Below are positions 1 to 47,117 of a stretch of DNA of 47,118 bases, in pieces. The stretch's first letter is position 1, and every line of letters begins with the position of its first letter. A program made the position numbers and the translations under genes. The notes beneath the pieces are model-generated. The model was not told where the DNA came from. It made no database searches and saw only the letters and a program-made list of their open reading frames with translations. The stretch is from Oscillospiraceae bacterium (GTDB taxonomy: Bacteria > Bacillota > Clostridia > Oscillospirales > Ruminococcaceae). The DNA lies in assembly GCA_016288755.1 (NCBI GenBank), contig JAEELE010000068.1, positions 1 through 47,118 of the forward strand, read 5' to 3'.

Positions 1-158
1 AGGGATACTATCCCTTTGGAATCCCATTTTGTGCGAATTCCACGCTGATACGTTATTTCCGTCATAATGGGATTCTTAAGGGGCAGTGCCCCTTAAGCAG
101 GGGTTTTGGGACAGAGTCCCCAATATAATCCGTCGGAGACACCTTTTTCTACAGCCTG
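1..158 (+). repeat. Family 1 hairpin-rich interspersed repeat, copy A (left part outside window)
   Basis: This matches positions 10959-11116 of copy B at 156 of 158 bases. It carries the same chain of stem-loops and the same right terminus CTTTTTCTACAGCCTG at 143-158. About 75 bp of the left end lies outside the window if it is as long as copy B. Directly after the terminus comes a terminator hairpin (159-186). By analogy with copies B and C, an identical hairpin should lie just left of the missing end. Confidence 0.9.
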
Positions 159-194
159 AGCTCCCGCAGCACAGTCTGCGGGAGCTTTCTGTTT
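159..194 (+). terminator. Intrinsic terminator abutting repeat copy A
   Basis: An 11-bp stem (AGCTCCCGCAG / CTGCGGGAGCT, loop cacagt) is followed by TTCTGTTT on the plus strand. It therefore terminates a rightward gene that would lie left of the window. It starts at the base after the right terminus of repeat copy A. On the minus strand it has no T-tract but may still slow transcription leaving the ExbB/ExbD-like operon. Confidence 0.75.
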
Positions 195-4989: not shown

Positions 4990-5044
4990 ATGATAAACGA
5001 TACAGTCGGAAGAGAGACGGAAGAGGAGTCAGGAGGCAGAAAGC

Positions 5045-5214
5045 GGCAGTGAGCAGTGAGGAGTGAGGAGTGAGGAGTTGTTCCGTCACCTTCAGTTCTG
5101 CTGCTGAACGGAAGGCGCACAAGGGGCTTGGGGCACCATGCCCCATTCAAAATCATCCGCGCAAGCGGATACCGCAGCTCCTCACTCCTCACCTCTAATT
5201 TCTAACTTCTAACC
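5045..5214 (+). repeat. Family 2 repeat, copy 1: core flanked by complementary 7-bp arrays
   Basis: The left array has GAGCAGT followed by three GAGGAGT units (5052-5079). The core begins GTTCCGTCACCTTCA and contains a TGGGGCA-cca-TGCCCCA hairpin. The right array (5177-5211) has heptamers GCTCCTC, ACTCCTC, ACCTCTA, ATTTCTA and ACTTCTA. The two arms are complementary over about 15 bp (GTGAGGAGTGAGGAG), so the unit can fold back on itself. It fills the gap between the SCIFF terminator and the hydrolase gene and ends 11 bp before that start codon. I find no clear promoter for the hydrolase operon in it. Confidence 0.8.
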
Positions 5215-9116: not shown

Positions 9117-9209
9117 AAAATTGTGCAAAGGTGTGAGGGGGAATCCGCATCGTGCACTTGTTTTGGGTAAATCACATAGGGCCACATGAAAAAACGGAGG
9201 GGAATTATC

Positions 9210-10841
9210 ATGAAGAAGAATCTGATGGGTCTTTTGGCGGCGACTGCATTCGCATTCACGTCCATGACCGCACTGCCCGGCAATGCCGCATCCGGCGATG
9301 TGTTCAGTGTCGGCAACGGCAGAAACCAGTACAAGGGCGAATCTGAAGGCTACAGCTACGAGATCTGGCTCGACAACACCGGCGGCAGCGGCTCGATGAC
9401 ACTCGGTCCGGGCGCTACCTTCAAGGCTGAGTGGAGCGCATCTGTCGCGCGCGGCAACTATCTCGCACGCCGCGGTCTGTCCTTCGGCTCGACCAAGGTC
9501 GCGACCGATTACGAGTATATCGGCATGGACTACGAAGCATCCTACCAGCAGACCGGCAGCGCACAGGGCAACTCCCGTCTCTGCGTCTACGGCTGGTTTG
9601 AGAATAAGGGTGCTCCCGGCAACCCGCCGCTCGTTGAGTATTACATCATTGAGGACTGGGTCGACTGGTGCCCGGATTCCAACAACTACAAGATGTACAC
9701 AATCGACGACGCACAGTACAAGGTCTTCCAGATGGATCACACCGGTCCGGATATCCACGGTCAGAACTCCACCTTCAAGCAGTATTACAGCGTCCGTCAG
9801 CAGAAGAGAAAGTCCGGTCACATCACCGTTTCCGATCACTTCAAGGCTTGGAAGGAGCAGGGCTGGGGCATCGGTCTTCTCTATGAGGTCGCACTGAACG
9901 CGGAAGGCTACCAGAGCAGCGGCGTTGCAAACGTCACCAAGCTGGATGTCTACACCAAGGATCCGGGTTCGACCGGCTCGAATCCGTCCACCGGCACGAC
10001 CGTTCCGACTGAGCCGGCACCGACGATCGAGACTTCCAGTCCGAAGAGCGGCGACGGCAGCCTCACCGACAACTTCGACAACGGCAGCTCCGACTGGGCA
10101 GGCCGCGGCGAGAGCGTCAGCGTCGGCGTCACGAAAGACTTTGCACACAGCGGCGATTCCTCGCTCTATGTCTCCGGCAGAACGGACACATGGCAGGGCT
10201 TCAGCGGCAAGAGCGATGAGCTCAAGGCAGGCGGCACCTACGACATCTCCGCCTATGTCGGCTACAACGACCCGAATTATTCGTCGATCTCCTTCACGAT
10301 GGGTCTGCAGTACACGGCAAACGGCAAGGAGAATTACGACAATCTGTTCAAGGCAGAGACGACAAGCGGCAAGTGGACAGAGCTCGGCGGCACCTTTGAG
10401 GTTCCGGCGGGTGCGACCGATATCAGCATCTACATTCAGACGGACTACGACGACAGCTCGACGGCAAAGCTCCCGTTCTTCCTTGACGATGTCAAGCTGA
10501 CCGGCGATTCGATCCACGACGTCACCACCACAACAACCACCACGACCACAACGACCACCACCACAACGACCACCACGACGACTCCCGAGACCACGACCAC
10601 GACCTCTTCGACCCCGTCTACGCCCGGTCCGGAGATCGGTCTGGCAGGCGACGTTGACCTGAGCGGCGACGTGAACGTGGCAGACGCTGTTCTGCTGGCG
10701 CGTGCACTTGCTGAGGATAAGGACGTTGTTGTGAGCGCACAGGGCAGAGCCAATGCGAATGTCAACGGCGACAGCAATGTTGACAGCGACGACCTGACCA
10801 TGATCCTCGAGTATCTCGCAGGCATCAAGCAGTCCCTGTAA
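9210..10841 (+). CDS. Dockerin-bearing GH11 endo-1,4-beta-xylanase
   Basis: A 543-residue secreted enzyme. The ATG at 9210 follows GGAGGGG by 7 nt; the upstream ATG at 9186 contains that site and is rejected. The signal peptide ends near G-N-A-A (about 26). The GH11 jelly-roll is about 30-250 with nucleophile Glu143 in P-L-V-E-Y-Y and acid/base Glu232 in A-E-G-Y-Q-S-S-G. A CBM22/CBM4_9-like module follows (about 283-440), then a linker of about 20 consecutive Thr (10524-10585, a repetitive ACN-codon tract prone to length change), and a type I dockerin (478-543). The dockerin and CBM resemble those of the GH43 enzyme at 2174, so both should dock on the same scaffoldin and attack xylan together. 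Confidence 0.95.
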   Translation: MKKNLMGLLAATAFAFTSMTALPGNAASGDVFSVGNGRNQYKGESEGYSYEIWLDNTGGSGSMTLGPGATFKAEWSASVARGNYLARRGLSFGSTKVATDYEYIGMDYEASYQQTGSAQGNSRLCVYGWFENKGAPGNPPLVEYYIIEDWVDWCPDSNNYKMYTIDDAQYKVFQMDHTGPDIHGQNSTFKQYYSVRQQKRKSGHITVSDHFKAWKEQGWGIGLLYEVALNAEGYQSSGVANVTKLDVYTKDPGSTGSNPSTGTTVPTEPAPTIETSSPKSGDGSLTDNFDNGSSDWAGRGESVSVGVTKDFAHSGDSSLYVSGRTDTWQGFSGKSDELKAGGTYDISAYVGYNDPNYSSISFTMGLQYTANGKENYDNLFKAETTSGKWTELGGTFEVPAGATDISIYIQTDYDDSSTAKLPFFLDDVKLTGDSIHDVTTTTTTTTTTTTTTTTTTTTPETTTTTSSTPSTPGPEIGLAGDVDLSGDVNVADAVLLARALAEDKDVVVSAQGRANANVNGDSNVDSDDLTMILEYLAGIKQSL

Positions 10842-10851
10842 TCATTCAGAC

Positions 10852-10884
10852 AAATCCCCGTCCTGTGCGCAGGACGGGGATTCC
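10852..10884 (+). terminator. Xylanase terminator hairpin, proximal copy
   Basis: AAATCCCCGTCCTG and a facing CAGGACGGGGATT form a strong stem 11 bp after the stop codon. The T-tract is replaced by the left end of repeat copy B. The identical 33 bp recur at 11117-11149 on the other side of the repeat. Confidence 0.8.
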
Positions 10885-11116
10885 AGTTTGTCGATAAAGT
10901 GCTTTTGATGTGCCTGCGGCACATTTTTGCGGGGACGCTGTCCCCGCACCCCTGCCAAAGGGATACTATCCCTTTGGAATCCCGTTTTGTGCGAATTCCA
11001 CGCTGATACGTTATTTCCGTCATAATGGGATTCTTAAGGGGCAGTGCCCCTTAAGCAGGGGTTTGGGGACAGAGTCCCCAATATAATCCGTCGGAGACAC
11101 CTTTTTCTACAGCCTG
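10884..11116 (+). repeat. Family 1 hairpin-rich interspersed repeat, copy B (complete, 233 bp)
   Basis: Termini CAGTTTGTCGATAAAG (10884-10899) and CTTTTTCTACAGCCTG (11101-11116) are inverted repeats matching at 12 of 16 bases. Inside is a chain of perfect stems: GTGCC/GGCAC, GCGGGGAC/GTCCCCGC, CAAAGGGAT/ATCCCTTTG, CTTAAGGGGC/GCCCCTTAAG and TGGGGAC/GTCCCCA. No ORF of note. It is flanked on both sides by the same 33-bp terminator hairpin. Size, inverted ends and lack of coding capacity are those of a MITE-like non-autonomous element. Confidence 0.9.
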
Positions 11117-11155
11117 AAATCCCCGTCCTGTGCGCAGGACGGGGATTCCTGTTTC
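11117..11155 (+). terminator. Xylanase terminator hairpin, distal copy with tail
   Basis: Identical over 33 bp to 10852-10884, followed by TGTTTCTG. This copy keeps the tail and is probably the original end of the terminator. Confidence 0.75.
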
Positions 11156-11246
11156 TGTGCGCGGATTGAGGCGCCTGCGGATTTTGCGGGGGCTGTCCGG
11201 GCGCCCCTGCCCTCTCGCGTCGACGGGTCTCCGGGCACGCAGACGT

Positions 11247-12263
11247 TCATCTGCCGCGGATACGCTGCGCAAGAAAGCGGAGGGCTGCTGTTTTCAAAAG
11301 CAAAGCCCCGCACATGCAGAGCAGATCGGATGCGGATGCGAAGCGCAGCGCGTTCATGCTGGAAAGCGGCGAATACAGAAACCACGCTGCGAACGCCGGA
11401 TATGCTCCGCTGAGAAACGCACCGATGCCGACCAGCAGTACCGCCGCCGAAATGACCGCGGGCGTTCTGCGCAGCAGCACCGAAAGCGCGCAGACCACCA
11501 TTGCAAATGCTGCTGCCGCCAGCATCCGGAGCACGGCGCAGAGGAGCATACCCGACCGCACGGTGAGATCGAGCGCGCACTGCTCAAATCCGGTCAGGCT
11601 CTGGATCGGTACATCCAGCGCGCCGAAATCCCAGCGATACGCGAAAACCGCAAACTGTAAGCCGGAGCATACCGCTGTCAGAAAGACGGAGAGCAGGACC
11701 GCATTCAGCAGCTTTGCCGAAATCAACTGTTTTCTGCCGATTGCCGCGGGGCAGAGAATCTGCTCCATGCCGCACTGTGCGTCGCCGAGCATCAGCATCG
11801 GCAGCAAAAACAGCAGCCCGAGCAGCGATGCCCAGTTCATGCCGAATTTTCGCAGATAATCGGTCAGCTCAAGATCATAGGTCAGCACCGGATGCTTCTC
11901 CCTGCAGGACGCAAGGCGGCTGTACTTGGATTCCAGTTCCGCGAGCGCATTGTGCCGCAGAGAGGCAAGCAGACGCTCTTTCCGCGATTCCTCCGTATAT
12001 ACGCCGTCGCCGGGCTGCATCTGCTCGGCGGCTTTTTGCTGTTCCGCGCGGATTGCCTGCGCGGTCTCCTCCGAATATGCCCCCGCGTATTTTTCGATGT
12101 ATTCCGCATAGAGCTGCGCATCGAAGGTGTATTGCTTTGCAGGCTGCGCAAAACAGGCAATGCCGAGCTGAAGCAGGAGCGCACAGAGAATCAGAAGCCA
12201 GCCTCTTCCGGCAATCAGCAGCTTCTGCCGCTCCCATCTGCAGCAAACAGACAGTCTGCTCAT
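11247..12263 (-). CDS. ABC-2 type transporter permease, last gene of the exporter operon
   Basis: A 338-residue membrane protein. A first hydrophobic segment (about 20-40) is followed by a long extracytoplasmic loop rich in Glu/Ala/Gln (about 42-140). Five or so hydrophobic segments then follow up to the end (L-L-G-L-L-F-L-L-P-M, L-L-S-V-F-L-T-A, M-L-L-C-A-V-L-R-M-L-A, V-I-S-A-A-V-L-L-V-G). This is the ABC-2 permease layout. Its start overlaps the ATPase stop (ATGA). It pairs with the permease at 13105 around the shared ATPase. The substrate is unknown. Confidence 0.75.
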   Translation of the reverse strand: MSRLSVCCRWERQKLLIAGRGWLLILCALLLQLGIACFAQPAKQYTFDAQLYAEYIEKYAGAYSEETAQAIRAEQQKAAEQMQPGDGVYTEESRKERLLASLRHNALAELESKYSRLASCREKHPVLTYDLELTDYLRKFGMNWASLLGLLFLLPMLMLGDAQCGMEQILCPAAIGRKQLISAKLLNAVLLSVFLTAVCSGLQFAVFAYRWDFGALDVPIQSLTGFEQCALDLTVRSGMLLCAVLRMLAAAAFAMVVCALSVLLRRTPAVISAAVLLVGIGAFLSGAYPAFAAWFLYSPLSSMNALRFASASDLLCMCGALLLKTAALRFLAQRIRGR

Positions 12264-18921: not shown

Positions 18922-19642
18922 CGAAAAGCCGGTTCTGTTCGCGGTCATCTGGATCGTGGTCTATGTGGTCGGCACCGGAACACTCGGCTCCGTGTCGGAG
19001 CATGACAGCGTGAACTACGCCGCCATGCTCGGCGCGTGCATCGCGATCGCGGCGGTGCTGCTGATCTTTGCGAAAAAGCACGGGCTCATGCAGGAATGGT
19101 ATCTGCAGGGCTATCGCGGCGACGTGAAGCGGGCGCTGTATTTTCTGCCGCTGGCTGCCGCAATGACCGAAAACATCTGGACCGGGACCGCGCTGCCGGA
19201 GGAACCGGCAGGGACCGTGCTGCTCGGCATCGCGGCAAAGGGCGTGCTCGCGCCGTTTCTGGAGGAGCTGATCCTCCGTGCGATGCTGTACCGCGCGATC
19301 GCGAAGGAGAGCACCCGCCGCGCATTCTGGATCACGACGGTGACCTTCGGGGCGGGGCATATTGTCAATCTGGTGTTCGGCAGGGGTTCGCTCGAGACGC
19401 TGGTGCAGGTGGGCTATGCGCTCTGCATCGGGTTTGTGTTCACGGTCATCATGGTGACGGGCAAGAGCATTCTGCCGACCGTGATCGCGCATATCGTGTT
19501 CAATACGCTCTCGTTTTTCGCGCGGGAGCCCGAACAGGCATGGGTCGGATATGCCTGCATTGCGGTGCTCTGCGCAGTCTGCGTCGGATACGGCGTGTAT
19601 CTGCTGCGCGTTTCCGGCGGTATCCCGGAGCGGGCGGACTGA
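18905..19642 (+). CDS. CPBP-family intramembrane metalloprotease
   Basis: 245 residues; the ATG at 18905 follows CAGGAGGG and lies inside the end of the TetR gene. Six to eight hydrophobic segments. The CPBP/Abi motifs are intact: E-E-L-I-L-R at 120-125 (EExxxR), G-H-I-V-N with His152, and H-I-V-F-N with His196 and Asn200. In Gram-positives such proteins mature or degrade peptides in the membrane, or give self-immunity to bacteriocins; no bacteriocin gene is next to it, so the substrate is unknown. Confidence 0.88.
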   Translation: MKKLFDEKPVLFAVIWIVVYVVGTGTLGSVSEHDSVNYAAMLGACIAIAAVLLIFAKKHGLMQEWYLQGYRGDVKRALYFLPLAAAMTENIWTGTALPEEPAGTVLLGIAAKGVLAPFLEELILRAMLYRAIAKESTRRAFWITTVTFGAGHIVNLVFGRGSLETLVQVGYALCIGFVFTVIMVTGKSILPTVIAHIVFNTLSFFAREPEQAWVGYACIAVLCAVCVGYGVYLLRVSGGIPERAD

Positions 19643-19680
19643 ATTTTCCCGCATCCGCAGAGTATCACCGAAATCTGCCC

Positions 19681-19709
19681 TTTACTTTTTTCGGGAAATG
19701 CGGTATAAT
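19681..19709 (+). promoter_or_regulatory. Promoter of the HAD hydrolase gene
   Basis: TTTACT, 17 bp, TATAAT, about 30 bp before the ATG, giving a very short leader. Confidence 0.7.
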
Positions 19710-19740
19710 GGAAGAAAACCGCGAACCGAAGGAGACAGAT

Positions 19741-20307
19741 ATGCAGGTATTTGATTTCGACAACACACTCTATCACGGCGAAAGCGCCGTCGATTTTGCA
19801 CTCTGGATGATCCGGCATAACCGCAAAGTATTGCTCTGGCTGCCGCGTATTATCTGGAATCTGCTGAAATATAAGCTGTGTCTGATCAACCTGAAAAGCC
19901 TCATGCAGCCTGCCAACGCGTTTCTCAGGACGATCATCCGCGATGAGAAGCAGATGCAGCGCGCCGTTGCATGCTTCTGGGAGACACACCGGCGCTTTCT
20001 CAACCGGGAGATGATCGCGAAAATCCGCCCCGGTGATGTGATCATCACGGCGGGACCCTCCTTTCTGTTTGCGCCGATCCGCGCAGAGCTGAAAGATGTC
20101 CGCATGATCTGCACGGAAATCGACCTTCGGCGCAAACAGCTCATCTATATCAACATGCACGACAACAAGACAAAGCGCTTCCGCGAGGAATTCGGGCAGA
20201 CGCCGATCGCGCGGTTTTTCACGGATTCCTTCAACGACCGCGCCATGATGGAGATCGCAGAGCGCGTGTATCTCGTGAAGCGCAGCCGCATCAGACGCAT
20301 CAAATAG
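19741..20307 (+). CDS. HAD-superfamily hydrolase (subfamily IB-like)
   Basis: 188 residues; the ATG at 19741 follows AAGGAG, and the long open frame upstream (to 19036) only shadows the CPBP gene. Motif I is F-D-F-D-N-T-L with Asp5 and Asp7, motif II is I-T-A-G-P-S, a Lys is available in D-N-K-T-K-R-F, and motif IV is T-D-S-F-N-D-R. The helical cap between motifs I and II is as in SerB-like phosphatases. It probably removes phosphate from a small molecule; the substrate is unknown. It is a single-gene unit with its own promoter and a terminator that has been duplicated by repeat copy C. Confidence 0.85.
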   Translation: MQVFDFDNTLYHGESAVDFALWMIRHNRKVLLWLPRIIWNLLKYKLCLINLKSLMQPANAFLRTIIRDEKQMQRAVACFWETHRRFLNREMIAKIRPGDVIITAGPSFLFAPIRAELKDVRMICTEIDLRRKQLIYINMHDNKTKRFREEFGQTPIARFFTDSFNDRAMMEIAERVYLVKRSRIRRIK

Positions 20308-20332
20308 AGCCGGAGCTTTCGGGGCTCCGGCT
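20308..20332 (+). terminator. HAD-gene terminator hairpin, proximal copy
   Basis: AGCCGGAGC / GCTCCGGCT starting immediately after the stop codon. The T-tract is missing because repeat copy C begins at 20333. It matches 24 of 25 bases of 20548-20572. Confidence 0.8.
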
Positions 20333-20547
20333 CAGGCTGTAGAAAAAGGTGTCTCCGACGGATTATATTGGGGGCACTGCCCCTTAAGAATCCCATTATG
20401 ACAGAAATAACGCATCAGCGTGGAATTCGCACAAAACGGGATTCCAAAGGGATAGTATCCCGTCGCTTCGCTAGGGCAGGGGTGCGGGGACAGCATCCCC
20501 GCAAAAATGTGCCGCAGGCACATCAAAAGCACTTTATCGACAAACTG
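20333..20547 (-). repeat. Family 1 hairpin-rich interspersed repeat, copy C (215 bp, inverted)
   Basis: Same termini as copy B in the opposite orientation: CAGGCTGTAGAAAAAG at 20333-20348 and CTTTATCGACAAACTG at 20532-20547. Compared with B it has lost about 26 bp between stems 4 and 5, fusing the left half of one to the right half of the other (GGGGGCACTGCCCC). It has gained about 9 bp near CGTCGCTTCGCTAGGG. The same 25-bp terminator hairpin flanks it on both sides. Being inverted relative to B but in the same place relative to the gene, it shows insertion is not orientation-bound. Confidence 0.9.
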
Positions 20548-20580
20548 AGCCGGAGCTTTCGGAGCTCCGGCTTTCTGTTT
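20548..20580 (+). terminator. HAD-gene terminator hairpin, distal copy with tail
   Basis: AGCCGGAGCT / AGCTCCGGCT followed by TTCTGTTT. One base differs from the proximal copy; here that base extends the stem to 10 bp, so this is probably the original sequence. Confidence 0.8.
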
Positions 20581-25236: not shown

Positions 25237-25424
25237 TTTGTCGATCATGTGGGATCGATGTGCCTGCGGTTTTTTTGTGGGGACTCCATCCCCACGCCCC
25301 TGCCAAAGGGTCAGTGACCCTTTGGAATCCCATTTTGTGTGATTCTGACGCTGAATCATAATGGGATTCTTAAGGGCTGGCAGCCCTTAAGCGGGGACTT
25401 GGGGGCAAAGCCCCCAATATGATC
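25236..25424 (+). repeat. Family 1 hairpin-rich interspersed repeat, copy D (divergent, right end lost)
   Basis: It begins GTTTGTCGAT as in copy B and keeps the order of the stems, but their sequences have changed in a paired way: GTGGGGA/TCCCCAC, CAAAGGGTCA/TGACCCTTTG, CTTAAGGGCT/AGCCCTTAAG and TTGGGGGC/GCCCCCAA. It stops at CCCCAATATGATC; the last about 35 bp and any right-hand hairpin are absent. The stop codon of the convergent cyclase gene begins at the next base. Confidence 0.85.
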
Positions 25425-28006: not shown

Positions 28007-28173
28007 ATGCGCTTCGCACATGATTCAGAATGGGGGGAACTCCAAGCCCCGCAGTGCGACCTTCGTTTCAGCAGAAGCAGTGAAGATGACGGAACAACTC
28101 CTCACTCCTCACTTCTAACTTGCCATTTCTCATTTCTCATTTCTCACTTCTCGCTTTCCGTTTCCCACTTCAT
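28007..28173 (-). repeat. Family 2 repeat, copy 3, with an 11-unit heptamer array
   Basis: On the minus strand the core begins GTTCCGTCATCTTCA and runs through CTTCTGCTGAAACGAAGG and GGGGCTTGGAG to CCCCATTCTGAATCAT, matching copy 1 in order. Its array on the plus strand (28097-28173) is a run of 7-bp units: ACTCCTC twice, ACTTCTA, ACTTGCC, ATTTCTC three times, ACTTCTC, GCTTTCC, GTTTCCC, ACTTCAT. The last 30 bp lie inside the EAL gene. Confidence 0.8.
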
Positions 28174-36086: not shown

Positions 36087-39000
36087 CTATCCATTCGACC
36101 ACCTCCGGCGCCTGACCGTGACATATCCGGCTGCGGAGAGCAGCAGCAGCATCCCGCCCACGGTGTAGTAGATGCGCGTGCCTGTGCCGCCGGATTCGGG
36201 GAGCTCGACTGCGTTGGACTGCAGCGCGGCGTTTGTCAGCGCAAGCTGTGTCAGCGCCCCGCTCAGCTCCGCACCCTGCGAGCCTGTTGAGTAGGAAACC
36301 GGAATAAATGCGCCTGTCGCGGTTTCCCTGATGAAGTAGCGGTAGGTGTGTCCGCGCCCGTCCGTCTTCGGCAGGTCGGATACCGTTGCGCTCAGCCAGC
36401 TTGCCGCTGCCGAGACCGTGATATCCTGCACCTTTTCGGCTGTTGCGGGCACATTGGCATTTGCTTCGGTGACCGTCGTCTGGACCGTGAAGGTCACACT
36501 GCCGCCGCCTTCATCCGTGATTGTGATTTCCGTGGTGCCGACCTTTTCGCCGGTGACAATGCTGTGCGTTGCCGGGTCGTAATACGCTACAGCCGCATCG
36601 GTGGTCGATTGATTCGCAGTGCCGACGATATTCAGCACCGGGTAGCTGCTTCCGACATTCAGTGTGAGGAGGTTCTCCGGCACAATGTCGCCGAGGTCGC
36701 AGCGCACCCGAATGGAATCAATATTCAGCGTGACCGTGCTGCTCTCCGTGCCGCGCGTTCCGATCAGAACCACTGTGCCTATGTGGGTCGCTGTCACTAT
36801 GTTTCCGCTGATCTCCACCTCGCCGCTGCTGTTCGCGGTATCGACGCTCCATGACTCAACGCTGAGGATATTGCCGTCGGCATCTTCTGCCGACAGAGTC
36901 GCGGTCCCGCCGACATGCAGCACGTCGCGGTCAATGAGTGCCGTGAAGGCTTTGCTGGAAACTGTGAATATCACTGTATCCGCCGCACCGCCGTGCGTTG
37001 CGGTGATCGTGACAGTACCGTTTCCGGTGAATGTCACCTCGCCGTTTGCATTGACTGTTGCTACATTCGTATCACTGCTGCTCCAGTTTGCGCTTGCGTT
37101 TGCATCAAGGTCAACCGTGTCGCCCTCTGTCCGATCGGTCGTGATAGTTGCTTTGTCGGTAATGGAGAAGGGCGTTACTGTGTAAGTCACAGAATCGGAA
37201 TTGGTTGTTCCTGCGTCTGTTGCACTTGCAGTAATTGTGACCTCTGAAACGGCACTGACTTGCTTGAATGTAATATTGCCATTATTGTCAACGGTTGCAA
37301 CATTACTGTCGCTGCTTGCCCAGCTGATCATGTCGGCGGATGTCGTTGCAGTAAGTGTGGCTGTGTCGCCGGAAATAACGCTTGTGTTGTCCGGCTTGTT
37401 CGTGATTGAGACTGTGGGACCAACGGGGGTGTAGTAGAAGCGGATTTCTTTGATCCATATTTTAGTATTCTGTGCGTTATATGCAGTGTTTTCTGTTACC
37501 GAAACGCCCTGAATCGGGCTAGGAATGCCATCATAGTATACATTATTCGTCCAACCTTGATAGCTTGTCAAGTCATAATACAGTTCAGAAGAAGTGAGAT
37601 AACCGGAATTTAAATAGAATTCTCCGAATGTCACATTTGATGCCTTGATATATGTTTTAATACCATAAAAGTGCACTGGTGCTTCCTCGAATACATACCC
37701 AATTCCAGTAATATCATAACCACTGCATAGGCTTTGAACGTTGCCTTTTTCCAAAGTTAGCAACTCAGAATTAACATCTAGCGATACATAATTCCCATGT
37801 GAATCTGTCCCGCTCCCCATCAACCGTATCTTGCCTTTGGAATTCGTCAAAGGTCTTCCCAAAGGCATCTGAACGGGTGTTTGCTCTACCACCTCCGTCT
37901 GAGCATTGGAAATATCCGTCTGCGCCTGTGCCAGAGCAGCCTGCACTCTCCGCATGGAGAACATGCCCCGCGGGAGGCTGCTGACGCTCTGCGTCTGCGC
38001 GGATTGTGTGTTTGCGTTTGCCGCGGCGCCGGTGTAGGGCTCATCGCCGTTATACGCCTGCCGCCACAGCTCGACCGTCACCTGCGTCGTGCCGCCGGTT
38101 TCATTTGCAAGCCAGCTCTTTTGGACATTCAGCGCGCCGGTGTCCAGCTCATTCGTCACCGTGTAGCTGCGGACCTCCGTTTCACCGGTCGTATCCACGG
38201 TCGCTGTCTGACCGCCGCTTGCGATCCAGCCTGCGGGCACATCCTCGATGACCTGATACTGCTTCGATGCCGGAAGACCGGTCCACACCGCCTCCCAGCC
38301 CGAGCCGCTTTCCGCGGTCACGGTCTGCGAGCTGACGGTCACATACTGATGTGTCGCCGTGTCATACTGCTGCAGCAGCAGCGTCACGGAATCCGGCGGA
38401 CTGACTGTGCCGTTGCCGGGTGTGTAATCCCAGACCTTCTGTGCCCGGATCTCGACCGTCTCGCCCTCGACGAAGTTATCGACCGTCATGATCGTGTCGC
38501 TGCCGGGAATCTGTCCCTCGTTGGCATACTGCGGTGTGTAGCTTTCGACCGTATAGCCGTTGCCGTCGGTCTCGACGATGTAGTAGCAGTATCCTTCGTC
38601 CAGTCCCTTCAGCGAAACCGTCCAGCCGGTGCTCCTGCTGAGCGTGACCGTGCCGTCCGTGCCGAGCCCCGGAACATTTTCGATGCCCGTCACAAGATTG
38701 GTCGCGTCCAAGCCGTATTTTGTCATGATGTCGGTCGCTTCTGCATTGACGAGCTGCGTCTCGCTCCGCGCCTTCCGGTAGAGCTGCACCTGCACATCTG
38801 CGTAATTCACATTGGAGATCAGCGGGTTATCCTGCTGGTTCTTGTCGCGCCATTGCTTCTTGACCACCAGAACGCCCGGCTGCTTGTTGGTGACATCCAG
38901 CGTGCGGTCCGCCTTATAGGCCGTGTTGCCGTCGAGCGTGTACACCGCGATATAATCGCCGCTTGTGCTTTCGGACTGCTCCTCGAGCACGAAATACTGC

Positions 39001-42000
39001 AGCTTCGCGTTGTCCGTGCCGCCGCGGAACGGCAGATTCTGCCATGTGTACTGCCACGGGTCGGTCTCCGTTCCGTTGAGCGTGACCGGGTTGGTGATCC
39101 CGGTGACCTGCGAAACGCCGTTGTAGACCTTGCCCTTGCTGATAAAGCTCTCGATAAACGCCTGATCGACGGTCTGCTTGCCGGTGAACTGATACAGCGT
39201 GAATGTCACCGCATCGCCCTCGCCGTGAATCTCGTTGCCGTCCGCCCATGTCTTGGCGGCGTGCACGTCGACGCTGGTCGGGTTGGTGTTCTTGTTGATG
39301 AGGTACATCACACCGGTGTTGCCGTTGAGTGCGTACACATCACTGACGATATAGTCCTCGAGCGCTGTGACCTCCTCCACAAGGAACTTGGTGTAGTTGA
39401 TCCCGTCGCCGCTGATCAGGTCCTGCGGCACCTCGATCTCCCAGTTGGGAGCGGTCAGCCGCTGTCTGTCGTCCGGCAGCGTGATCTTGACCGCGGTGCC
39501 GTCCGGCGTAATGCCGTAGAGGTTGAAGTCGACCGCACTGACCGGCGGATTCGCGATCGGGTTGCCGTTCTTGTCCTGCCACTGCTTTTTCACGAGCAGC
39601 TTTCTGGAGTTCACGATTTTGATCACGCCGCTGCTGCTGATCGCGTCATCCGTGTAGGAGGGCTTATACTCGGCACTGTTGTTCGATGCATCGTGCCAGA
39701 CCGCTCCGTTGCAGTTGACGTATTTGCCGCAGGTCGCACTGTTTTCATCGGCATCGTAAACATACCATGTCGGATCGGCATTTACGGCTTCTCCGTTGGA
39801 ATTGCCGATCTTGTAGGCGACCTCCCGGACGAAATAGTAGTAGGGCTTGCCGGTTGCCATGTCGCCGTTCGGGAGGTTCCGCCAGATCTCGCTCTGCCGG
39901 AAGGAATCCTCCTTGCTCAGGATATAGGCTTCAAGCGTCTCGTCGTATTTCGCCTGATCGGCTGCTGCGAGCAGGTCGCTCTGGTTTTCAACCGGCGCTG
40001 CATCATTGATATCCATTGTGTCCGAGCGCAGAAGCTGCACGGCGACCTTCACATCGTTAATCGCGGAATTGGGGTCCTGTTCCCATGTCTTTTCCGCGCC
40101 GATGTTGATCTGTCTGACATTCTGCACGATCAGGCTCGACGCCTTGCTGCTGCGCTCCTGTACACTTGCGGCGGGAACCCCCGCGCTCGCAGCCAGTGCC
40201 TCGATCTGCTCCTGCGTCATTGCCGGAGACGGATTTGTTCCGGTATTGGGCTCATTGTAGATGAAATAGGTCGTGTTGTCCGCGTTGCCCTCGACCGTGT
40301 GATCGTTGTCCGGCGCTTCGTAGGGCACCTTCGGGTAGTTGAAATCCGCGTGATTGTCCGGCGCCTTCACCTCTATGATCTTGTAGAGCACCTGATTTTC
40401 CAGCTCGATCTCAAAATTGCCCGCGAGCTCCATTTCGGCAGCGCTCTCCGGGATGATGTGATTCTCGCCCGATTCGGTTTCCGTCAGCCCCTGCGAGAAG
40501 CCTGCGGTGTGCAGGGTATCTGACAGCAAGCCGTCATTGCCGATTGGCGCGAACGAGAATGCATCTGCGTACACCCACTGTTGCAGATCGGCGTCGTATT
40601 TTGCCAGCTTGAAGCGGGCATTCAGGTCGTCGATGGAGTGATTTCCGATATCGACCTTCACGATCTCGAAGTTCTGCCCGACGCGCACCGACATGTTCGA
40701 TTTCTGCACGCAGTATTCGGTCTTGCGGGATTCATCCGTCTTGTCGCCGCCGGAGGTGTGCACGCTCGCTTCGTTCTGCAGGGAGAGAATGGAGTCGTCC
40801 TGCAGAATGCTGCCGTCCGGATTCTTGATCACATAGTCGTACATGATCACATAGTGACCGCCGTCCGGAAGCGTGAATTTGGCGTTGTAGTTCGTGCAGG
40901 GGGTGGAGGTTTTCTGAATTGCGCTCTCGACAGTTACCTCCTTGTTGTCATCGGAACCAACCATCTTAAATTTTGCGCTTGTATTCGGCTCCATCGGCTG
41001 CTTAAAGACTATTTTAATTTGAAGTTTGCCCGAACTGTCGAATGAATCGCCTTCCCATGAAATATCAGCATAATTTTTTAGCGATTGATCCGCCCAACTC
41101 TCATATTGGACAGGAGCGTTTGCTGTACCATGGTAATTAATGATTAGCTCAAAGCCTTTTTTGATGCCTTCACTTCCAGATGAAATTGTCGTTCCGCTGC
41201 CATCATTCCATAAATTCAGATTGGTGAACTTGTCTGAATAGTCCTCAACTGTTACATATTTTCCGTCTTTTGATTCGGTGGAATAAGAGTACAGGCTCGG
41301 GTCAACCGGAGACCGCTTTCCGTCCGTATCATAGTAGTAGACGGAGACATTGGAAAGCGTCGGTATTACGGTGACATCTGTTCCGTCCTGCTTCTCGCCG
41401 CCTGCCGGTGTATACTCCAGAATGCGGAACGTATCGGTGACACTGAATGTATTGCCGCTCGAAAGATACTTGCTGTCCTGATTGACATCCAGCGTATAAT
41501 GTGCCGTGCCGTCCCGGATGACCGCATACTGCTTCGTTTCGCCCCCCTGCGTGAGCGTCCTCGGATTACCGTATGCCGTACTGTTGATCTTGTCAATGTA
41601 GCCGACATTATCGCCGCCGGAAACATGAAAATCGACCGCTTGCGGCGCATGCTCACTTTCTTCCTGAATACGGTTTGTAAGAATAAACTCCCCGGTGGCT
41701 TCGAGTGCTTCATCCACAACCGATTTCGGTGTTGCAGTATAATAGGTTATATATGATACTCTTAAACCTTGAGGCGGAGTAATCATATCGAAAATGGCTG
41801 TGGTATTATCATTCAGATACTGCAGATTCAAATGATTTGTATCCGAATAACCATTATAGGAGTTTTCATCATAATACTCACTCCAAATATACCGCCAATA
41901 TACACCGTCATTACCGCCGCCATTCGCCTCGATTCGCACGCCGTGCTTGCCGCAATCATTATAGAAGACTGAGCCGTCGGTCAATACATCAGTAAACTTA

Positions 42001-45000
42001 TACCCGACATTGCCATTTTGCGTTTGGTTCGTGAGCATATCTATGCGCCACTTGAACAAATAGCATTCTGTGGGAACTCCATTGATATCTACAATCGCAG
42101 TATCCACCTTGCCGATATCATCGGACGAAAGTGTATTATTCTGCAGAATTCCGTCATTCGCTGTGTCCCATGACATTCCGTTCAGCGTGCGGTGAATTAC
42201 ATTACCGTCTTCATCCTTGTCCTCAGTCACATTAGGAATGATACTTGGCACAGGATTCGCCGCCTTTTTGGTATACGGCGCATTCTCCGTATTCGTGATC
42301 GTGATCGTGGAATTCGACGAAACCGCATCAGCGCTGTACTCCGTGGAGTACCCCGGCTTCTCCGCCTCGACGAGCTTATAGATCACATCGCGCTCAACGC
42401 CGTTGACGGTCGCCTTTGTCGGGAGATTCTCCCACGCTGCATTCAGATCATTGGCACCGTCCACGTCGATCGTCTTGACCGCAGTGATGTTGTTGTCAAG
42501 CTGATCTGCCGTGACCCATGATGCGCCGCCGTTGGTCGAAGCCATCAGCGTGACCGTAATTGTTCCGGTCGGGGTTTCCTGATTCACCACCCAATGCTTC
42601 ACCATGCCGACCGTGATCCTCTTGGGCGTGTTGGTCACCACGGAATCGCCGGTCACGTTGATGCCGGACGCATCGGGTCTGGTGTAGAAATCCTCGCTCT
42701 CCGCTATGGTGATCGGCTGCGTGGCGGTGATTCTGGTCCGGCTGATCTCCTTCGCGCGGTATCTGACGGGCTGCTCCGTTCCGTCGATCCATTCCGACGT
42801 CGGCAGGCTGTCCCATGCGTTCGTGAGCTTCCAGCCGCCCGTCCCCGTGAGCTGTCTGTCCTGTTCGGCAACGGGCTCCCAATCACCTTCGCCGACCTTC
42901 TTCATCAGCTGCAGCGTGATTGCGGTATACTGCGACTTGTCTTCGCCGCTCGCCCACGTCTTTTCCACGGACAGGCTGCTCTGCTGCACGCCCTCCGCGC
43001 TCGGATAATAAATCGCGTCCGTGACGGTCTCCTGCTCCGTTGCAGTGATCTTCTCCGCACTTACCTCAACCGCGCGGTAATAGATTTTCTGCCCGTTCTC
43101 CGTCTCACGCGGGAGCTTTGTCCATGCGTCATCCAGACGCCAGTTGTTCACAGCGGTCACGGTTTTGGTTTCCGTCGCACCCGGGACACCATCCTGCCAG
43201 ACGCCGTCCTCGCCGATCCTGCGCTGCAGCTTCATGGTGACGCTTGTGTAGCCCTCGGTGTTGGTGCCGTCCTCCCAGACCTTGCTGACGGAAACATTGA
43301 TCTTCTTCCATGTGTTCTTCACCGTGACGGTCTGGTTCAGGTCGACCACATCTCCGAAGGTCACCTGCGTATCGAATTCATCCTGTCTGTCGACCGTGTA
43401 CTGTTCCAGACCGGAATTATCCGGCGCATTCTGCGGAAGATCAGACATCCTGATTTCCCGGAGCCCGTAGTGCAGCGGATTGCCGTTTTCGGCCTTTGTC
43501 AGCATCCATGTCCAGTAGATCGTGTCCGATTCGCCGGATGCCGTGAGGAATGCGTACTTATCCGAGAATTTGTAATCGTCTTCGTGATACTTCTGCTCCT
43601 CGGTCAGCGTGCTGAACTGCTCATCCGTCCATTTGTACAGCCGGTAGCCGACCACGCCGGTGCGGTAGGCGGGCGGAACGCCCTCCCAGACCTTATCGAC
43701 GCGAATGGTGATCATGTTGGACTGATTGATCAGGAGTGCGTTGCGCGCCTCAGTGCTGCCCGTGCTGGAGAGCTCGGTCGGGTCCTGATTGCCGATCCAG
43801 CCGTAATAGGTGTCGTAGCCGGTGTCGGTATTGCCGGTCTCAGCGCCGGTGTTGGTGCTGCCGCGCTTGCGCTCGAGCATTCTCACCTCGACGACCCGGT
43901 AGCGGACATTGTCGCCGGCATCCAGATTCCTCCATGTGTAGGACGCGCTCGCCGGAAGATTGTCGGGGTTCGGGTCAGGTGCGAAATTGCCGGTGCCGTC
44001 GTTGACGAGCTTCACCGTATTCGTATCCAATGCGACCCAGTCGCCGTAATTGGTGCTCTTTTCCAGCTGCAGCACGATGTTCGGGCGGAAGAATTCGTTG
44101 CCGTTGTCACCCTGCCACTGCTTCGTGACGGTGATATTGGTTTTCCGCCAAGTGTTTGTCACGTCGATCGTTCTGGAGCCGTTCGGTGCATAGACATAGT
44201 AACCGTTCCCGTAGCGCTCGTGATACACCGCCGTGAATTCCTGCGCTTCTTCGGCTGTCTGAATCTCGACCACCTTGTAATAATACGGGTGATTCTCCGA
44301 ATCGTATTTCGGCAGATCATGCCATTTCAGAATACTCGCGCTGTTGGCATAGTCGCCGTTGTCCTTGTTGAGTGTGATCGTCTCCGCACCCGGGACATAT
44401 TCCCACGACGAATCCAGCTCCGGGTCTCCCGTCGTTCGCATCAGCCGGAATGTGAGGGATGCGGGCTTGTCGCTGTCCGAATCGTAGCGCGCCCAGAATT
44501 TCTCTGCGGAAACGGTCATCAGGTCGTAGACATTCGTGACGGTGTTGTAGCTGCTCTGCGCTTTCTGCGTATACCCATCCGGTACCGTGGCTTCCTCCAC
44601 GCGGTATTCCAGCTCCTGACCGCCTGCGTTGTACTTCGGCAGATTGTTCCACACTGCCTGCCAGTTGGTCGCAGCCGATGCCTCGACCGGATTGGCAACG
44701 CCCTCCGCGCTGACCGTCACCCATTCATCATTCGAGTTTTTGACACGCTGCTTCAGCGTCAGCTGGACAGCCGGGCGCTCGCTCTCGTGCCCCTCGTCAT
44801 CCTCCCACAGCTTGATGCCGGTGAAGTTCATGCCCTGCCATGTGTTGGTAAAGCCGAAGCTCGGGTTGTCGATGCCCTTGACGCCGTTGGTCTGATCGCC
44901 GGAAACGGTCTGTTCGTAGCGGTTGACAACACCGGACGGCATCGTCATCGTTTCCTCGACCTTGTAATAGATCGGCAGTCTGTCGTTACCGTCAGTAATG

Positions 45001-47117
45001 TGATAGGCAGGGAGCTCTGTAAACTGCCTGCTTTCGGACTGTGTGCCGTTCAGCGTGATCGTGTCCGTATAATCGGAATAGCCGGGATATTCATGGAACG
45101 GCAGCCAGTCGCCGCTGCCCTGATATTTATAGTACAGTGTAAACGTCGCAGTTGTCTGTGCGCGGTTCATGTCGTCGTTGTTGTTCCATGTCTTGCCGAC
45201 ATTGACGGTCGCCTGACCTGCAAGCGAGGGGATATCGACCGTGACTTCCGTCGGCGTTTCATCTTCAATGCCGTAGCTGTTCGTCACGGTGCCGGGGGTG
45301 GTCGCATCTCTGCCCGCAACCGTACCGAGCGGAACCCGGTAGGTCACGGTGAGCTTATCCATCTCGGGAACCCCGTTCGACGCAGCCTTGATCCGCAGCG
45401 TATGGTCGCCGGCATTCTCAAACAGACCGGCGATATTATCAATCGTGACCGACTGATAGTTGTTTTCAGCCGTTGCGCTGATCCACTGGAAGCCGTCGGT
45501 ACCGAACGCGCTGTCGAAGATTTTGTAGCCGTTCAGCTTTTCTGTCGCCCTCGGAACGGTATTGACCGAGATCGTCCAGTCGACATATTCCCTTGATTCG
45601 CCGTTGACCTCCTCGGCGTAATAAACGCCGGTCTTGCTCGACTCACGCTGATGTGTCTTATCGTATGTTACATCCGGCGTACTCGGCGTGCTGCCGTCGA
45701 TCGTGACCGAATTGGTATATGAACCGTCGCCGGAAACCCTGGACCGGAAAACCAGCTTCACCTTGTCCTCGGTTGTTGCATTGAAGGTCCATGTCGAGGT
45801 GCTGCCGCTTTCCGAGGTCTTGGAAATCAGCGCCGAAGCATCCAGTGCCGTGTGGTCTTCATCCTCGGCGTGGATAAGCGTCAGATCGCTCAGACCGCTG
45901 CCGAGTGTTTCCGTCAGCGTGCACCCCGCAAGCGAAAGCCCGTAATTCCGCGTGACATCCACCGTCCAGTAGATGTAATCCTCGCCGACGGCTTCCCCGC
46001 TGCGGTCGCCCTGATACTGGTAATCCGGCACACCGGTTTTTGTCGCATGCGGCACGGAATCCGGCGTGATCGTCTCAGTCGCCGTATCCTGCACGACGCC
46101 GTTGATCCTGACGGAGTTGGAAACGTCAAACGGATCAGTTCTCGTCCGCAGCTCCTCCGCGGAAATCTTCGTCTGATAGGTGATCGTGAAATCCTTCACG
46201 CGGTTGATATTCTCGTTGAACATGATCTGACCGTCCTGCAGAAAGCAGACGCCGTCCGGGTTCGTCGAGAAATTATAGGCACCGGCGAGCATATCATCCG
46301 TAATGGTGTAATTGTTCGTCTCGTAGAGATCGTGCACGGTGATCGTCCATGTCAGCACCGGGCAGCCGATCTCATCCGTGCTCGGGTGAACCGATTTGCT
46401 GGCTGAGGGCTCTCTGTCGTCGAAATCCACCGTGATGCTCGCACTGCCGAGCGTGATCGTCTTGTCGCTGATCTGCGCGGCATCGCGGTTGACCAGACCG
46501 TTGAATTGCAGCGAGCCGGTCACAACGCCGCTGCTCTGCTTGATATAACTAATGTATTCCTGATTGAACTCCAGAACAATATAGCCGTAGTCGCCGTCGT
46601 CGGTGGGGTAAATTGTATATACACCCGTCGATAATGCCTCAAAAGAACCGTATTGCTCGAAGCAATAATTCTTCCAACCGATTGAATCATCTGTCGCATT
46701 ACCCTTATCCGATGCACCTGCTGCAAGAAAAACGCTCAGTTCATCCTTGGAAACCGGAAGATAGATATACGGCTTACTGGTATCGATCTTATCGTGCGTT
46801 CTGTCATTGATCACGAAATCGGCAGTCAGCGTGAACGAAACGGCATCCACGCCCTGACCGCCCGTAATGGTCGTGCCGCTGGATGTGCCGCCCGACACAT
46901 CATTGCCGATCTCGACACCCGTCACGTCATTCTCGATGGAGTATGCACCGGCAGGCACCACATCCGGCGTTGCAGCAGCACCCGGGCGCGCCAGACTCAG
47001 CGGAACGATGAATGCGCACAGCAGACTGAGCACAACCGTCAGCGCGGTCAGTCTGTGATACCATTTGCGCGCAAACAGCTTCTCTTCGATCAGACTGTTT
47101 CTTTTCACTGCTGTCAC
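36087..47117 (-). CDS. Giant Cna-B-repeat adhesin / pilus tip protein with LPESG sorting signal
   Basis: About 3676 residues; the 5' end is at the window edge. GTG at 47117 or 47108 can start it, but a start further upstream cannot be excluded. The signal segment is at about 23-48. Residues about 55-630 are tandem adhesin domains. Eight Cna-B repeats follow to about 1610, each opening with a K-x-W-type strand (for example V-N-V-G-K-T-W, I-K-L-W-E-D, V-S-K-V-W-E). A non-repeat domain spans about 1620-2200, then six more Cna-B repeats. The last repeat is split by about 520 residues (about 3030-3550) holding a beta-sandwich-like module and Big_2-type Ig repeats. L-P-E-S-G (3639-3643), a hydrophobic segment and R-R-R-R end the protein. 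Sortase should attach it to the pilus or wall; the ligand, perhaps plant fibre or host glycan, is unknown. Confidence 0.9.
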   Translation of the reverse strand: MTAVKRNSLIEEKLFARKWYHRLTALTVVLSLLCAFIVPLSLARPGAAATPDVVPAGAYSIENDVTGVEIGNDVSGGTSSGTTITGGQGVDAVSFTLTADFVINDRTHDKIDTSKPYIYLPVSKDELSVFLAAGASDKGNATDDSIGWKNYCFEQYGSFEALSTGVYTIYPTDDGDYGYIVLEFNQEYISYIKQSSGVVTGSLQFNGLVNRDAAQISDKTITLGSASITVDFDDREPSASKSVHPSTDEIGCPVLTWTITVHDLYETNNYTITDDMLAGAYNFSTNPDGVCFLQDGQIMFNENINRVKDFTITYQTKISAEELRTRTDPFDVSNSVRINGVVQDTATETITPDSVPHATKTGVPDYQYQGDRSGEAVGEDYIYWTVDVTRNYGLSLAGCTLTETLGSGLSDLTLIHAEDEDHTALDASALISKTSESGSTSTWTFNATTEDKVKLVFRSRVSGDGSYTNSVTIDGSTPSTPDVTYDKTHQRESSKTGVYYAEEVNGESREYVDWTISVNTVPRATEKLNGYKIFDSAFGTDGFQWISATAENNYQSVTIDNIAGLFENAGDHTLRIKAASNGVPEMDKLTVTYRVPLGTVAGRDATTPGTVTNSYGIEDETPTEVTVDIPSLAGQATVNVGKTWNNNDDMNRAQTTATFTLYYKYQGSGDWLPFHEYPGYSDYTDTITLNGTQSESRQFTELPAYHITDGNDRLPIYYKVEETMTMPSGVVNRYEQTVSGDQTNGVKGIDNPSFGFTNTWQGMNFTGIKLWEDDEGHESERPAVQLTLKQRVKNSNDEWVTVSAEGVANPVEASAATNWQAVWNNLPKYNAGGQELEYRVEEATVPDGYTQKAQSSYNTVTNVYDLMTVSAEKFWARYDSDSDKPASLTFRLMRTTGDPELDSSWEYVPGAETITLNKDNGDYANSASILKWHDLPKYDSENHPYYYKVVEIQTAEEAQEFTAVYHERYGNGYYVYAPNGSRTIDVTNTWRKTNITVTKQWQGDNGNEFFRPNIVLQLEKSTNYGDWVALDTNTVKLVNDGTGNFAPDPNPDNLPASASYTWRNLDAGDNVRYRVVEVRMLERKRGSTNTGAETGNTDTGYDTYYGWIGNQDPTELSSTGSTEARNALLINQSNMITIRVDKVWEGVPPAYRTGVVGYRLYKWTDEQFSTLTEEQKYHEDDYKFSDKYAFLTASGESDTIYWTWMLTKAENGNPLHYGLREIRMSDLPQNAPDNSGLEQYTVDRQDEFDTQVTFGDVVDLNQTVTVKNTWKKINVSVSKVWEDGTNTEGYTSVTMKLQRRIGEDGVWQDGVPGATETKTVTAVNNWRLDDAWTKLPRETENGQKIYYRAVEVSAEKITATEQETVTDAIYYPSAEGVQQSSLSVEKTWASGEDKSQYTAITLQLMKKVGEGDWEPVAEQDRQLTGTGGWKLTNAWDSLPTSEWIDGTEQPVRYRAKEISRTRITATQPITIAESEDFYTRPDASGINVTGDSVVTNTPKRITVGMVKHWVVNQETPTGTITVTLMASTNGGASWVTADQLDNNITAVKTIDVDGANDLNAAWENLPTKATVNGVERDVIYKLVEAEKPGYSTEYSADAVSSNSTITITNTENAPYTKKAANPVPSIIPNVTEDKDEDGNVIHRTLNGMSWDTANDGILQNNTLSSDDIGKVDTAIVDINGVPTECYLFKWRIDMLTNQTQNGNVGYKFTDVLTDGSVFYNDCGKHGVRIEANGGGNDGVYWRYIWSEYYDENSYNGYSDTNHLNLQYLNDNTTAIFDMITPPQGLRVSYITYYTATPKSVVDEALEATGEFILTNRIQEESEHAPQAVDFHVSGGDNVGYIDKINSTAYGNPRTLTQGGETKQYAVIRDGTAHYTLDVNQDSKYLSSGNTFSVTDTFRILEYTPAGGEKQDGTDVTVIPTLSNVSVYYYDTDGKRSPVDPSLYSYSTESKDGKYVTVEDYSDKFTNLNLWNDGSGTTISSGSEGIKKGFELIINYHGTANAPVQYESWADQSLKNYADISWEGDSFDSSGKLQIKIVFKQPMEPNTSAKFKMVGSDDNKEVTVESAIQKTSTPCTNYNAKFTLPDGGHYVIMYDYVIKNPDGSILQDDSILSLQNEASVHTSGGDKTDESRKTEYCVQKSNMSVRVGQNFEIVKVDIGNHSIDDLNARFKLAKYDADLQQWVYADAFSFAPIGNDGLLSDTLHTAGFSQGLTETESGENHIIPESAAEMELAGNFEIELENQVLYKIIEVKAPDNHADFNYPKVPYEAPDNDHTVEGNADNTTYFIYNEPNTGTNPSPAMTQEQIEALAASAGVPAASVQERSSKASSLIVQNVRQINIGAEKTWEQDPNSAINDVKVAVQLLRSDTMDINDAAPVENQSDLLAAADQAKYDETLEAYILSKEDSFRQSEIWRNLPNGDMATGKPYYYFVREVAYKIGNSNGEAVNADPTWYVYDADENSATCGKYVNCNGAVWHDASNNSAEYKPSYTDDAISSSGVIKIVNSRKLLVKKQWQDKNGNPIANPPVSAVDFNLYGITPDGTAVKITLPDDRQRLTAPNWEIEVPQDLISGDGINYTKFLVEEVTALEDYIVSDVYALNGNTGVMYLINKNTNPTSVDVHAAKTWADGNEIHGEGDAVTFTLYQFTGKQTVDQAFIESFISKGKVYNGVSQVTGITNPVTLNGTETDPWQYTWQNLPFRGGTDNAKLQYFVLEEQSESTSGDYIAVYTLDGNTAYKADRTLDVTNKQPGVLVVKKQWRDKNQQDNPLISNVNYADVQVQLYRKARSETQLVNAEATDIMTKYGLDATNLVTGIENVPGLGTDGTVTLSRSTGWTVSLKGLDEGYCYYIVETDGNGYTVESYTPQYANEGQIPGSDTIMTVDNFVEGETVEIRAQKVWDYTPGNGTVSPPDSVTLLLQQYDTATHQYVTVSSQTVTAESGSGWEAVWTGLPASKQYQVIEDVPAGWIASGGQTATVDTTGETEVRSYTVTNELDTGALNVQKSWLANETGGTTQVTVELWRQAYNGDEPYTGAAANANTQSAQTQSVSSLPRGMFSMRRVQAALAQAQTDISNAQTEVVEQTPVQMPLGRPLTNSKGKIRLMGSGTDSHGNYVSLDVNSELLTLEKGNVQSLCSGYDITGIGYVFEEAPVHFYGIKTYIKASNVTFGEFYLNSGYLTSSELYYDLTSYQGWTNNVYYDGIPSPIQGVSVTENTAYNAQNTKIWIKEIRFYYTPVGPTVSITNKPDNTSVISGDTATLTATTSADMISWASSDSNVATVDNNGNITFKQVSAVSEVTITASATDAGTTNSDSVTYTVTPFSITDKATITTDRTEGDTVDLDANASANWSSSDTNVATVNANGEVTFTGNGTVTITATHGGAADTVIFTVSSKAFTALIDRDVLHVGGTATLSAEDADGNILSVESWSVDTANSSGEVEISGNIVTATHIGTVVLIGTRGTESSTVTLNIDSIRVRCDLGDIVPENLLTLNVGSSYPVLNIVGTANQSTTDAAVAYYDPATHSIVTGEKVGTTEITITDEGGGSVTFTVQTTVTEANANVPATAEKVQDITVSAAASWLSATVSDLPKTDGRGHTYRYFIRETATGAFIPVSYSTGSQGAELSGALTQLALTNAALQSNAVELPESGGTGTRIYYTVGGMLLLLSAAGYVTVRRRRWSNG

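Follow-up and report, generated by a model that had tools for sequence, protein, structure and literature searches.

The short noncoding repeat that lies behind a xylanase gene of an Oscillospiraceae bacterium is best explained as a MITE of the IS1182 branch that duplicates whole terminator hairpins. For the full explanation, which includes mobilization in trans and a folded target, we estimate a probability of about 0.88. Judged from sequence comparison, the MITE very probably uses an IS1182-family enzyme, which would act on it in trans.

The window, by which we mean the whole 47,118-nucleotide stretch of DNA that was analyzed, is contig C91 of a draft assembly that comprises 141 contigs and 3,467,209 bases. 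Copy B of the MITE occupies 10884..11116 on the plus strand (233 bp), with the ends CAGTTTGTCGATAAAG at 10884 and CAGGCTGTAGAAAAAG at 11101-11116 on the minus strand and with CAGNYTGTMGANAAAG as its imperfect terminal inverted repeat. On its 5' side lies a plus-strand gene (9186..10841) encoding a GH11 xylanase with CBM_4_9 and dockerin domains, the terminator of which was hit. The first-pass annotation had described copy B as 233 bp long and flanked by a 33-bp perfect repeat identical to the xylanase terminator hairpin, and its coordinates proved right: the flanks read AAATCCCCGTCCTGTGCGCAGGACGGGGATTC(C) twice, at 10852-10884 and 11117-11149. One base of this repeat is shared with the element, the last C of the left-hand hairpin being element base 1, and the duplication thus amounts to 32 bp plus one shared base. 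The proximal (left) hairpin at 10852..10884, plus strand, lacks a T-tract, and the distal (right) copy at 11117..11149, plus strand, retains the tail TTCCTGTTT.

Copy C (215 bp) lies in the inverted orientation at 20333..20547 on the minus strand, and the gene on its 5' side (19036..20307, plus strand) encodes a HAD-like hydrolase domain. A 25-bp hairpin adjoins its right end (20308..20332, plus strand) and a second adjoins its left end (20548..20572, plus strand, with the tail TTTCTGTTT), the two being identical at 24 of 25 positions; the repeats reported earlier for this copy, as the hairpin of a different gene, were thereby confirmed. By eye, the hairpins at copies B and C have no evident sequence in common. 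Copy A (1..158, plus strand) is a MITE copy of which the contig start leaves only the right part, and it is followed by a 28-bp hairpin (159..186, plus strand). On contig C34 the same hairpin, in direct orientation, adjoins an element left end that lies at the contig start. Copy D is a decayed relative with 74% identity over the match (25239..25424, plus strand) that lies 3' of a nicotinate phosphoribosyltransferase gene and has a hairpin on its left side only. The window also contains a second inverted-repeat family (GAGTGAGGAGT-like) at 5023-5115 and 28060-28152, the two members being 76% complementary over 93 nt, as well as a 3676-codon open reading frame on the minus strand (36087-47117) that reaches nearly to the contig end.

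Assignment of the repeat to the MITEs rests on its small size (215-233 bp in the window), the lack of a transposase gene, its many copies, a target site duplication of 23-35 bp at 13 end pairs, and terminal inverted repeats similar to those of an autonomous element, namely the insertion sequence (IS) of genome G007 described below and the IS ends in the bacterium's own genome. A search of the whole draft (3.47 Mb) with copy B returned 59 matches, which fall in 40 separate places (40 of the 110 candidates scored). Many of the matches lie where a contig ends, and in some cases two of them are halves of a single copy. With at most one mismatch allowed, 75 instances of the end pattern CAGNYTGTMGANAAAG are present in the draft, versus 13 for a reversed control. 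DNA relatives of copy B, mostly partial matches, were found in 32 of 61 genomes searched, and within the genus in 29 of 30 genomes searched, its own included.

Several further features of the draft bear on the assembly and on related repeats. Its contigs often break inside elements, as in C2, C6, C10, C11, C26, C34, C91, C100, C106 and C132, and matching hairpins on two contig edges could be used for contig ordering. The same end pattern also bounds short repeats with different interiors (L077, L080, L136 and L137), which likewise lie beside hairpins; by their ends, several MITE families may share one transposase. On contig C102, a 58-bp palindrome with a 25-bp stem (L003, 1436-1493) consists of two IS right ends (CAGCCTGTCCACAAAGCCCCTCTGC...) and adjoins a terminator hairpin and a MITE copy; it is possibly the smallest derivative. 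On contig C17 (L009, 1728), the right hairpin is apparently shortened, as judged by eye, at a point where the hairpin loop and the element end share a stretch, which seems to resemble a microhomology deletion.

Hairpins lie at the element ends more often than expected by chance. The claim of a mobile element that sits at terminator hairpins and duplicates them whole holds across the genome: 48 of 62 distinct element ends have a hairpin (stem score of at least 8, no more than 3 nt away), versus 7 of 2202 other CAG positions in the window that pass the same hairpin criterion, and 13 pairs of ends carry the hairpin as a direct repeat. In the set of 62, duplicates were merged and ends with less than 20 nt of flank were excluded; it includes three IS left ends, relics of IS right ends, and the ends of further repeats that share the end pattern. 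The remaining 14 ends fell below the threshold of a hairpin score that misses stems with loops of more than 10 nt (e.g. L138). Beyond the hairpin, the flank is A-rich (at least 4 A in 8 nt) at 39 of the 48 ends, as against a window background of 8.1%. An A-rich flank is T-rich on the terminator strand, and the targets are therefore mainly terminators. Some hairpins have an element on each side, which is what a second insertion at a duplicated hairpin would produce.

It had been proposed that only the distal hairpin keeps its tail and that a shared motif is found there in copies A, B and C. The first of these points holds; the TTTCTGTTT/TTCCTGTTT tail was rejected both as a shared feature and as a general target motif: TTTCTGTTT or TTCCTGTTT occurs at 4 of the 48 hairpin-bearing ends, at the hairpin foot in three of them (A, B and C) and a few bases off in the fourth. 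The tail is at times also present in related terminators free of the element (L223 and L233).

The first-pass annotation had further suggested searching for a full-length relative whose matching ends enclose a transposase or recombinase gene, and one with a transposase and ends of this kind was found. The IS1182 transposase model gave matches in 11 of the 30 genomes of the genus, two of them over the cut-off. The best match, L103 in genome G007 of the same genus, is a 1636-bp IS with the ends CAGCTTGTCGAAAAAG and CAGACTGTCCATAAAG, flanked by 28-bp whole-hairpin repeats. Its protein scores 426 bits against NF033551 (cut-off 270) and also matches PF13751, PF05598 and PF01609; L142, from an Oscillospiraceae genome of water-buffalo rumen, has the identical protein and the identical 28-bp flanking repeat. 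Membership in the IS1182 family is thus indicated by a DDE transposase together with ends and a type of target similar to those of the MITE. Beyond about 16 bp of the end, MITE and IS have little in common by eye.

Within the bacterium's own genome, NF033551 had no match and the assembly contains no complete transposase gene; with the L103 protein as query, two contig-edge pieces were the sole hits at E up to 1. Contigs C6, C104 and C127 each start with an IS left end at a hairpin; of the L103 protein, C104 encodes the first 16 residues and C127 the first 19. Contig C97 terminates in an IS right end whose hairpin is that of C127 in direct orientation, so that C127 and C97 probably border one IS copy. 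Another IS right end, on C123, is without a hairpin.

The same hairpin was found on both sides of the element at 13 end pairs, 5 within one contig and 8 on two contig edges, which presumably face each other; a 14th pair was excluded as a single hairpin between two elements. When the loops of the 13 pairs are compared as direct repeats, there are no mismatches in 11 and one mismatch in 2, and the same pairs read as inverted repeats give 3 to 9 mismatches. The repeats at MITE copies are 23-35 bp long and are centered exactly on the dyad of the hairpin in 13 of 13 cases. Repeats at IS copies range from 19 to 39 bp (n = 43), with 39 centered exactly and 42 no more than 1 nt off. In shuffled versions of four of the repeats, which control for the tendency of the dyad score to favor centers near the middle, the offset was exactly 0 in 86 of 2000 and within 1 nt in 439 of 2000. 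ISfinder gives direct repeats of 0-60 bp for IS1182. Neither the 13 MITE pairs nor 39 of the 80 best of 584 related IS loci had the IS1272-type outcome, in which the hairpin is deleted without duplication. As had been argued from copies B and C, the duplicated sequence comes from the target and not from the element, since the hairpins differ by locus and are of variable length.

A T-tract is absent from the proximal hairpin and present on the distal copy only. The gene was earlier thought to keep a terminator on both sides of the insertion; instead, the proximal hairpin is severed from its T-tract, so that the gene is left with a full terminator only on the distal side. Before reaching it, transcription may enter the element.

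In the mechanism that we propose, an IS1182-family DDE transposase would bind the CAG...AAAG ends and move the MITE in trans, selecting rho-independent terminators by the shape of the inverted repeat and not by its sequence. At predicted points of attack, each strand would be joined to one transposon end at the hairpin's 5' foot. Repair of the gaps would copy the whole hairpin, leaving the element between two hairpins with the T-tract on the distal one. If the target were folded as a cruciform, both attack points would lie together at its base for any stem length. The borders of the repeats suggest that the target is probably bound in this folded form, which is the simplest reading because the stagger varies with the hairpin (19-39 bp) and is symmetric.

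The transposase might instead read the arms of the palindrome as half-sites in linear duplex DNA, one subunit on each, and cut outside them with no cruciform being formed. A symmetric dimer on an inverted repeat would also give dyad-centered repeats. Such an arrangement sits less easily with repeats that range from 19 to 39 bp and with arms that by eye have no common sequence; moreover, DDE transposases normally cut the target with a fixed stagger. We consider linear half-sites possible but rather unlikely, and favor the folded target.

Hairpin duplication extends well beyond the genus. Among the related IS loci, taken from genome contigs as the best 80 of 584, a direct repeat of the whole hairpin with both ends recognized was found at 38, and L177 was added as a 39th by another method. 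These 39 loci of the best 80 of 584 come from the Oscillospiraceae, other Clostridia, the Selenomonadales, the Bacillaceae and others. The IS end pattern is loose, and a locus scored as having both terminal repeats and no direct repeat need not be a true pair of ends. We inspected 15 of the 42 loci without a repeat (best 80 of 584): at L177 the two sides carry the same hairpin; 11 of the 15 have different hairpins on the two sides (L146, L149, L150, L156, L171, L173, L175, L176, L184, L188 and L211); at L144 and L202 just one of the two sides has a hairpin; and at L160 a single side could be read. In each of the remaining 27 of the 42, the sequence extends no more than 261 bases past the matched protein on one side. 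Where the two sides differ in their hairpins, the cause could be recombination between copies, chimeric assemblies, or another outcome of transposition. On plasmids, the whole hairpin is duplicated at 4 of 7 loci, in Acetoanaerobium (L272), at ISEfa7 of Enterococcus faecium (L273), in E. casseliflavus (L318) and in Salinivibrio (L317). The other three (L271, L315 and L319) are without the duplication: the Exiguobacterium plasmid locus L271 has a different hairpin at each end, and L315 and L319, more distant IS1182 members, gave no clear hairpin duplication by a simple end search.

Sites that lack the element were sought by comparing three IS sites (L194, L219 and L200) with orthologous loci of Mesobacillus and Bacillus relatives, which yielded nine matches. 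In 6 of the 9 comparisons the IS is absent and a single similar hairpin with a T-tract is present. For the L194 site, the hairpin of L266 is identical at 28 of 30 positions by eye, on the basis of the right flank only; six other genomes were searched for this site, of which three gave no match, and the matches of L265 and L267 start beyond the hairpin. At the L219 site, L305, L306 and L307 are empty, with both flanks matching and no match there to the L219 IS query. At the L200 site, L310 and L311 are empty with one hairpin, and L312 has a different terminator. The single hairpin at six empty sites implies that insertion turns one hairpin into two, in a comparison that concerns autonomous IS relatives and not the MITE copies themselves. 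Orthologs of the genes beside copy C, copy D and the G007 IS gave no strict empty site; the readable terminators, from the copy D and G007 comparisons, were unrelated in sequence, in a set of which several loci were misread with respect to orientation or choice of open reading frame.

These data also bear on whether the second hairpin could be a later product of slippage or of recombination between elements, formed once the element was in place, and not a target duplication. Rearrangement probably does occur, given the different hairpins at 11 of the 15 inspected repeat-less IS loci and the hairpins that lie between two elements. As a general origin of the second hairpin, however, it is very improbable: it must account for the same hairpin in direct orientation, with borders centered on the dyad, at 39 of 80 IS loci (best 80 of 584) and 13 MITE pairs, and the empty sites hold one hairpin. 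The occurrence of the hairpin on both sides in 13 matched pairs would also be seen if the hairpin were part of the element, as in a MITE carrying its own terminator at both ends, but the hairpins vary by locus while the element is conserved, and the empty sites of the related IS retain the hairpin without the element; locus-specific hairpins and IS empty sites together refute this reading, to which we give almost no credence. The duplication of a target hairpin by the inserting element is thus the reading that we retain.

Equally little credence can be given to a retroelement or single-strand transposon, such as a group IIC intron or an IS200/IS605 or REP-type element, for although these also prefer hairpins or terminators, the present repeat is bounded by terminal inverted repeats and a duplicated target, and ends of its kind belong to an element with a DDE transposase. 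The likeness to group IIC introns, IS200/IS605 and attC-using elements that had been raised at first consequently falls away, and the element belongs with the IS1182 family. IS200/IS605 elements have neither terminal inverted repeats nor a target duplication; both are present here, and this candidate was rejected. For positions 10700-11300, Rfam gave five matches at E up to 1, none of them a group II intron and none at the gathering score, and a known structured RNA was rejected for want of such a match. Group IIC introns and REP- or terminator-targeting ISs resemble the MITE in hairpin preference and differ from it in their enzymes, and we know of no whole-hairpin duplication by any of them.

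Closer parallels are found within the IS1182 family. ISEfa7 and its relatives (CAGACTGTAGACAAA ends) have the same kind of ends as the MITE, and one annotated ISEfa7 copy (L273) and an E. casseliflavus relative (L318) likewise lie between whole-hairpin repeats; ISEfa7 is autonomous, whereas the MITE has no transposase gene. According to the accessible part of PMC5678879, IS1272 of the staphylococci, also of the IS1182 family, targets inverted repeats and deletes or replaces the hairpin without duplication. The model given there explains this deletion by attack at the 3' feet (pathway a) and draws duplication of the whole stem-loop as a possible pathway b (PMC5678879, same part). TnSha1 is described, in the available portion of PMC4923244, as hitting hairpins, several of them confirmed terminators, and as deleting the target sequence; some IS1182 members target palindromes (Siguier et al. 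2015, as cited in that portion of PMC4923244). As far as these partial texts go, IS1272 and TnSha1 resemble the partner of the MITE in their IS1182 transposase, their inverted-repeat targets without primary sequence consensus, and insertion in both orientations. They differ from the present elements in that the hairpin is deleted or replaced there and duplicated here.

Two other MITEs have likewise been attributed to ISs of the IS1182 family, MITEPye1 of Paracoccus yeei (PMC11578231) and the ISMac2-related MITEs (PMC3852290), going by the sections of the two papers at hand. Those sections make no mention of terminator targeting or hairpin duplication for either, and in a table row for the ISMac2 MITEs the repeats appear to be listed as 4 and 0 bp (PMC3852290). 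A description of whole-hairpin duplication as an observed outcome was not found in the texts searched in one open-access library, PMC10969869 among them. The kind of element is thus known, and its duplicating outcome, size range and dyad symmetry were not found described in those texts; ISfinder may hold data on the direct repeats.

It is about an even chance, in our estimation, that the DDE transposase of this IS1182 branch recognizes the extruded cruciform of a terminator, with attack on both 5' feet giving a duplication set by the hairpin and not by the enzyme, and that IS1272 works with the opposite polarity and so deletes the hairpin. If this is true, one fold would have two mirror-image outcomes, and derivatives without a gene would have spread through many terminators by the duplicating mode. 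The present elements are a duplicating counterpart to the hairpin-deleting IS1272. Because the duplication varies in length, is centered on the dyad and covers the hairpin, recognition of the target through DNA shape can be put directly to the test. The ends used here would assist in locating and annotating elements of this type in other drafts, where contigs can break inside them. For the bacterium, the finding suggests how such a MITE can occupy dozens of places per genome, since its insertions fall behind genes and spare the last terminator.
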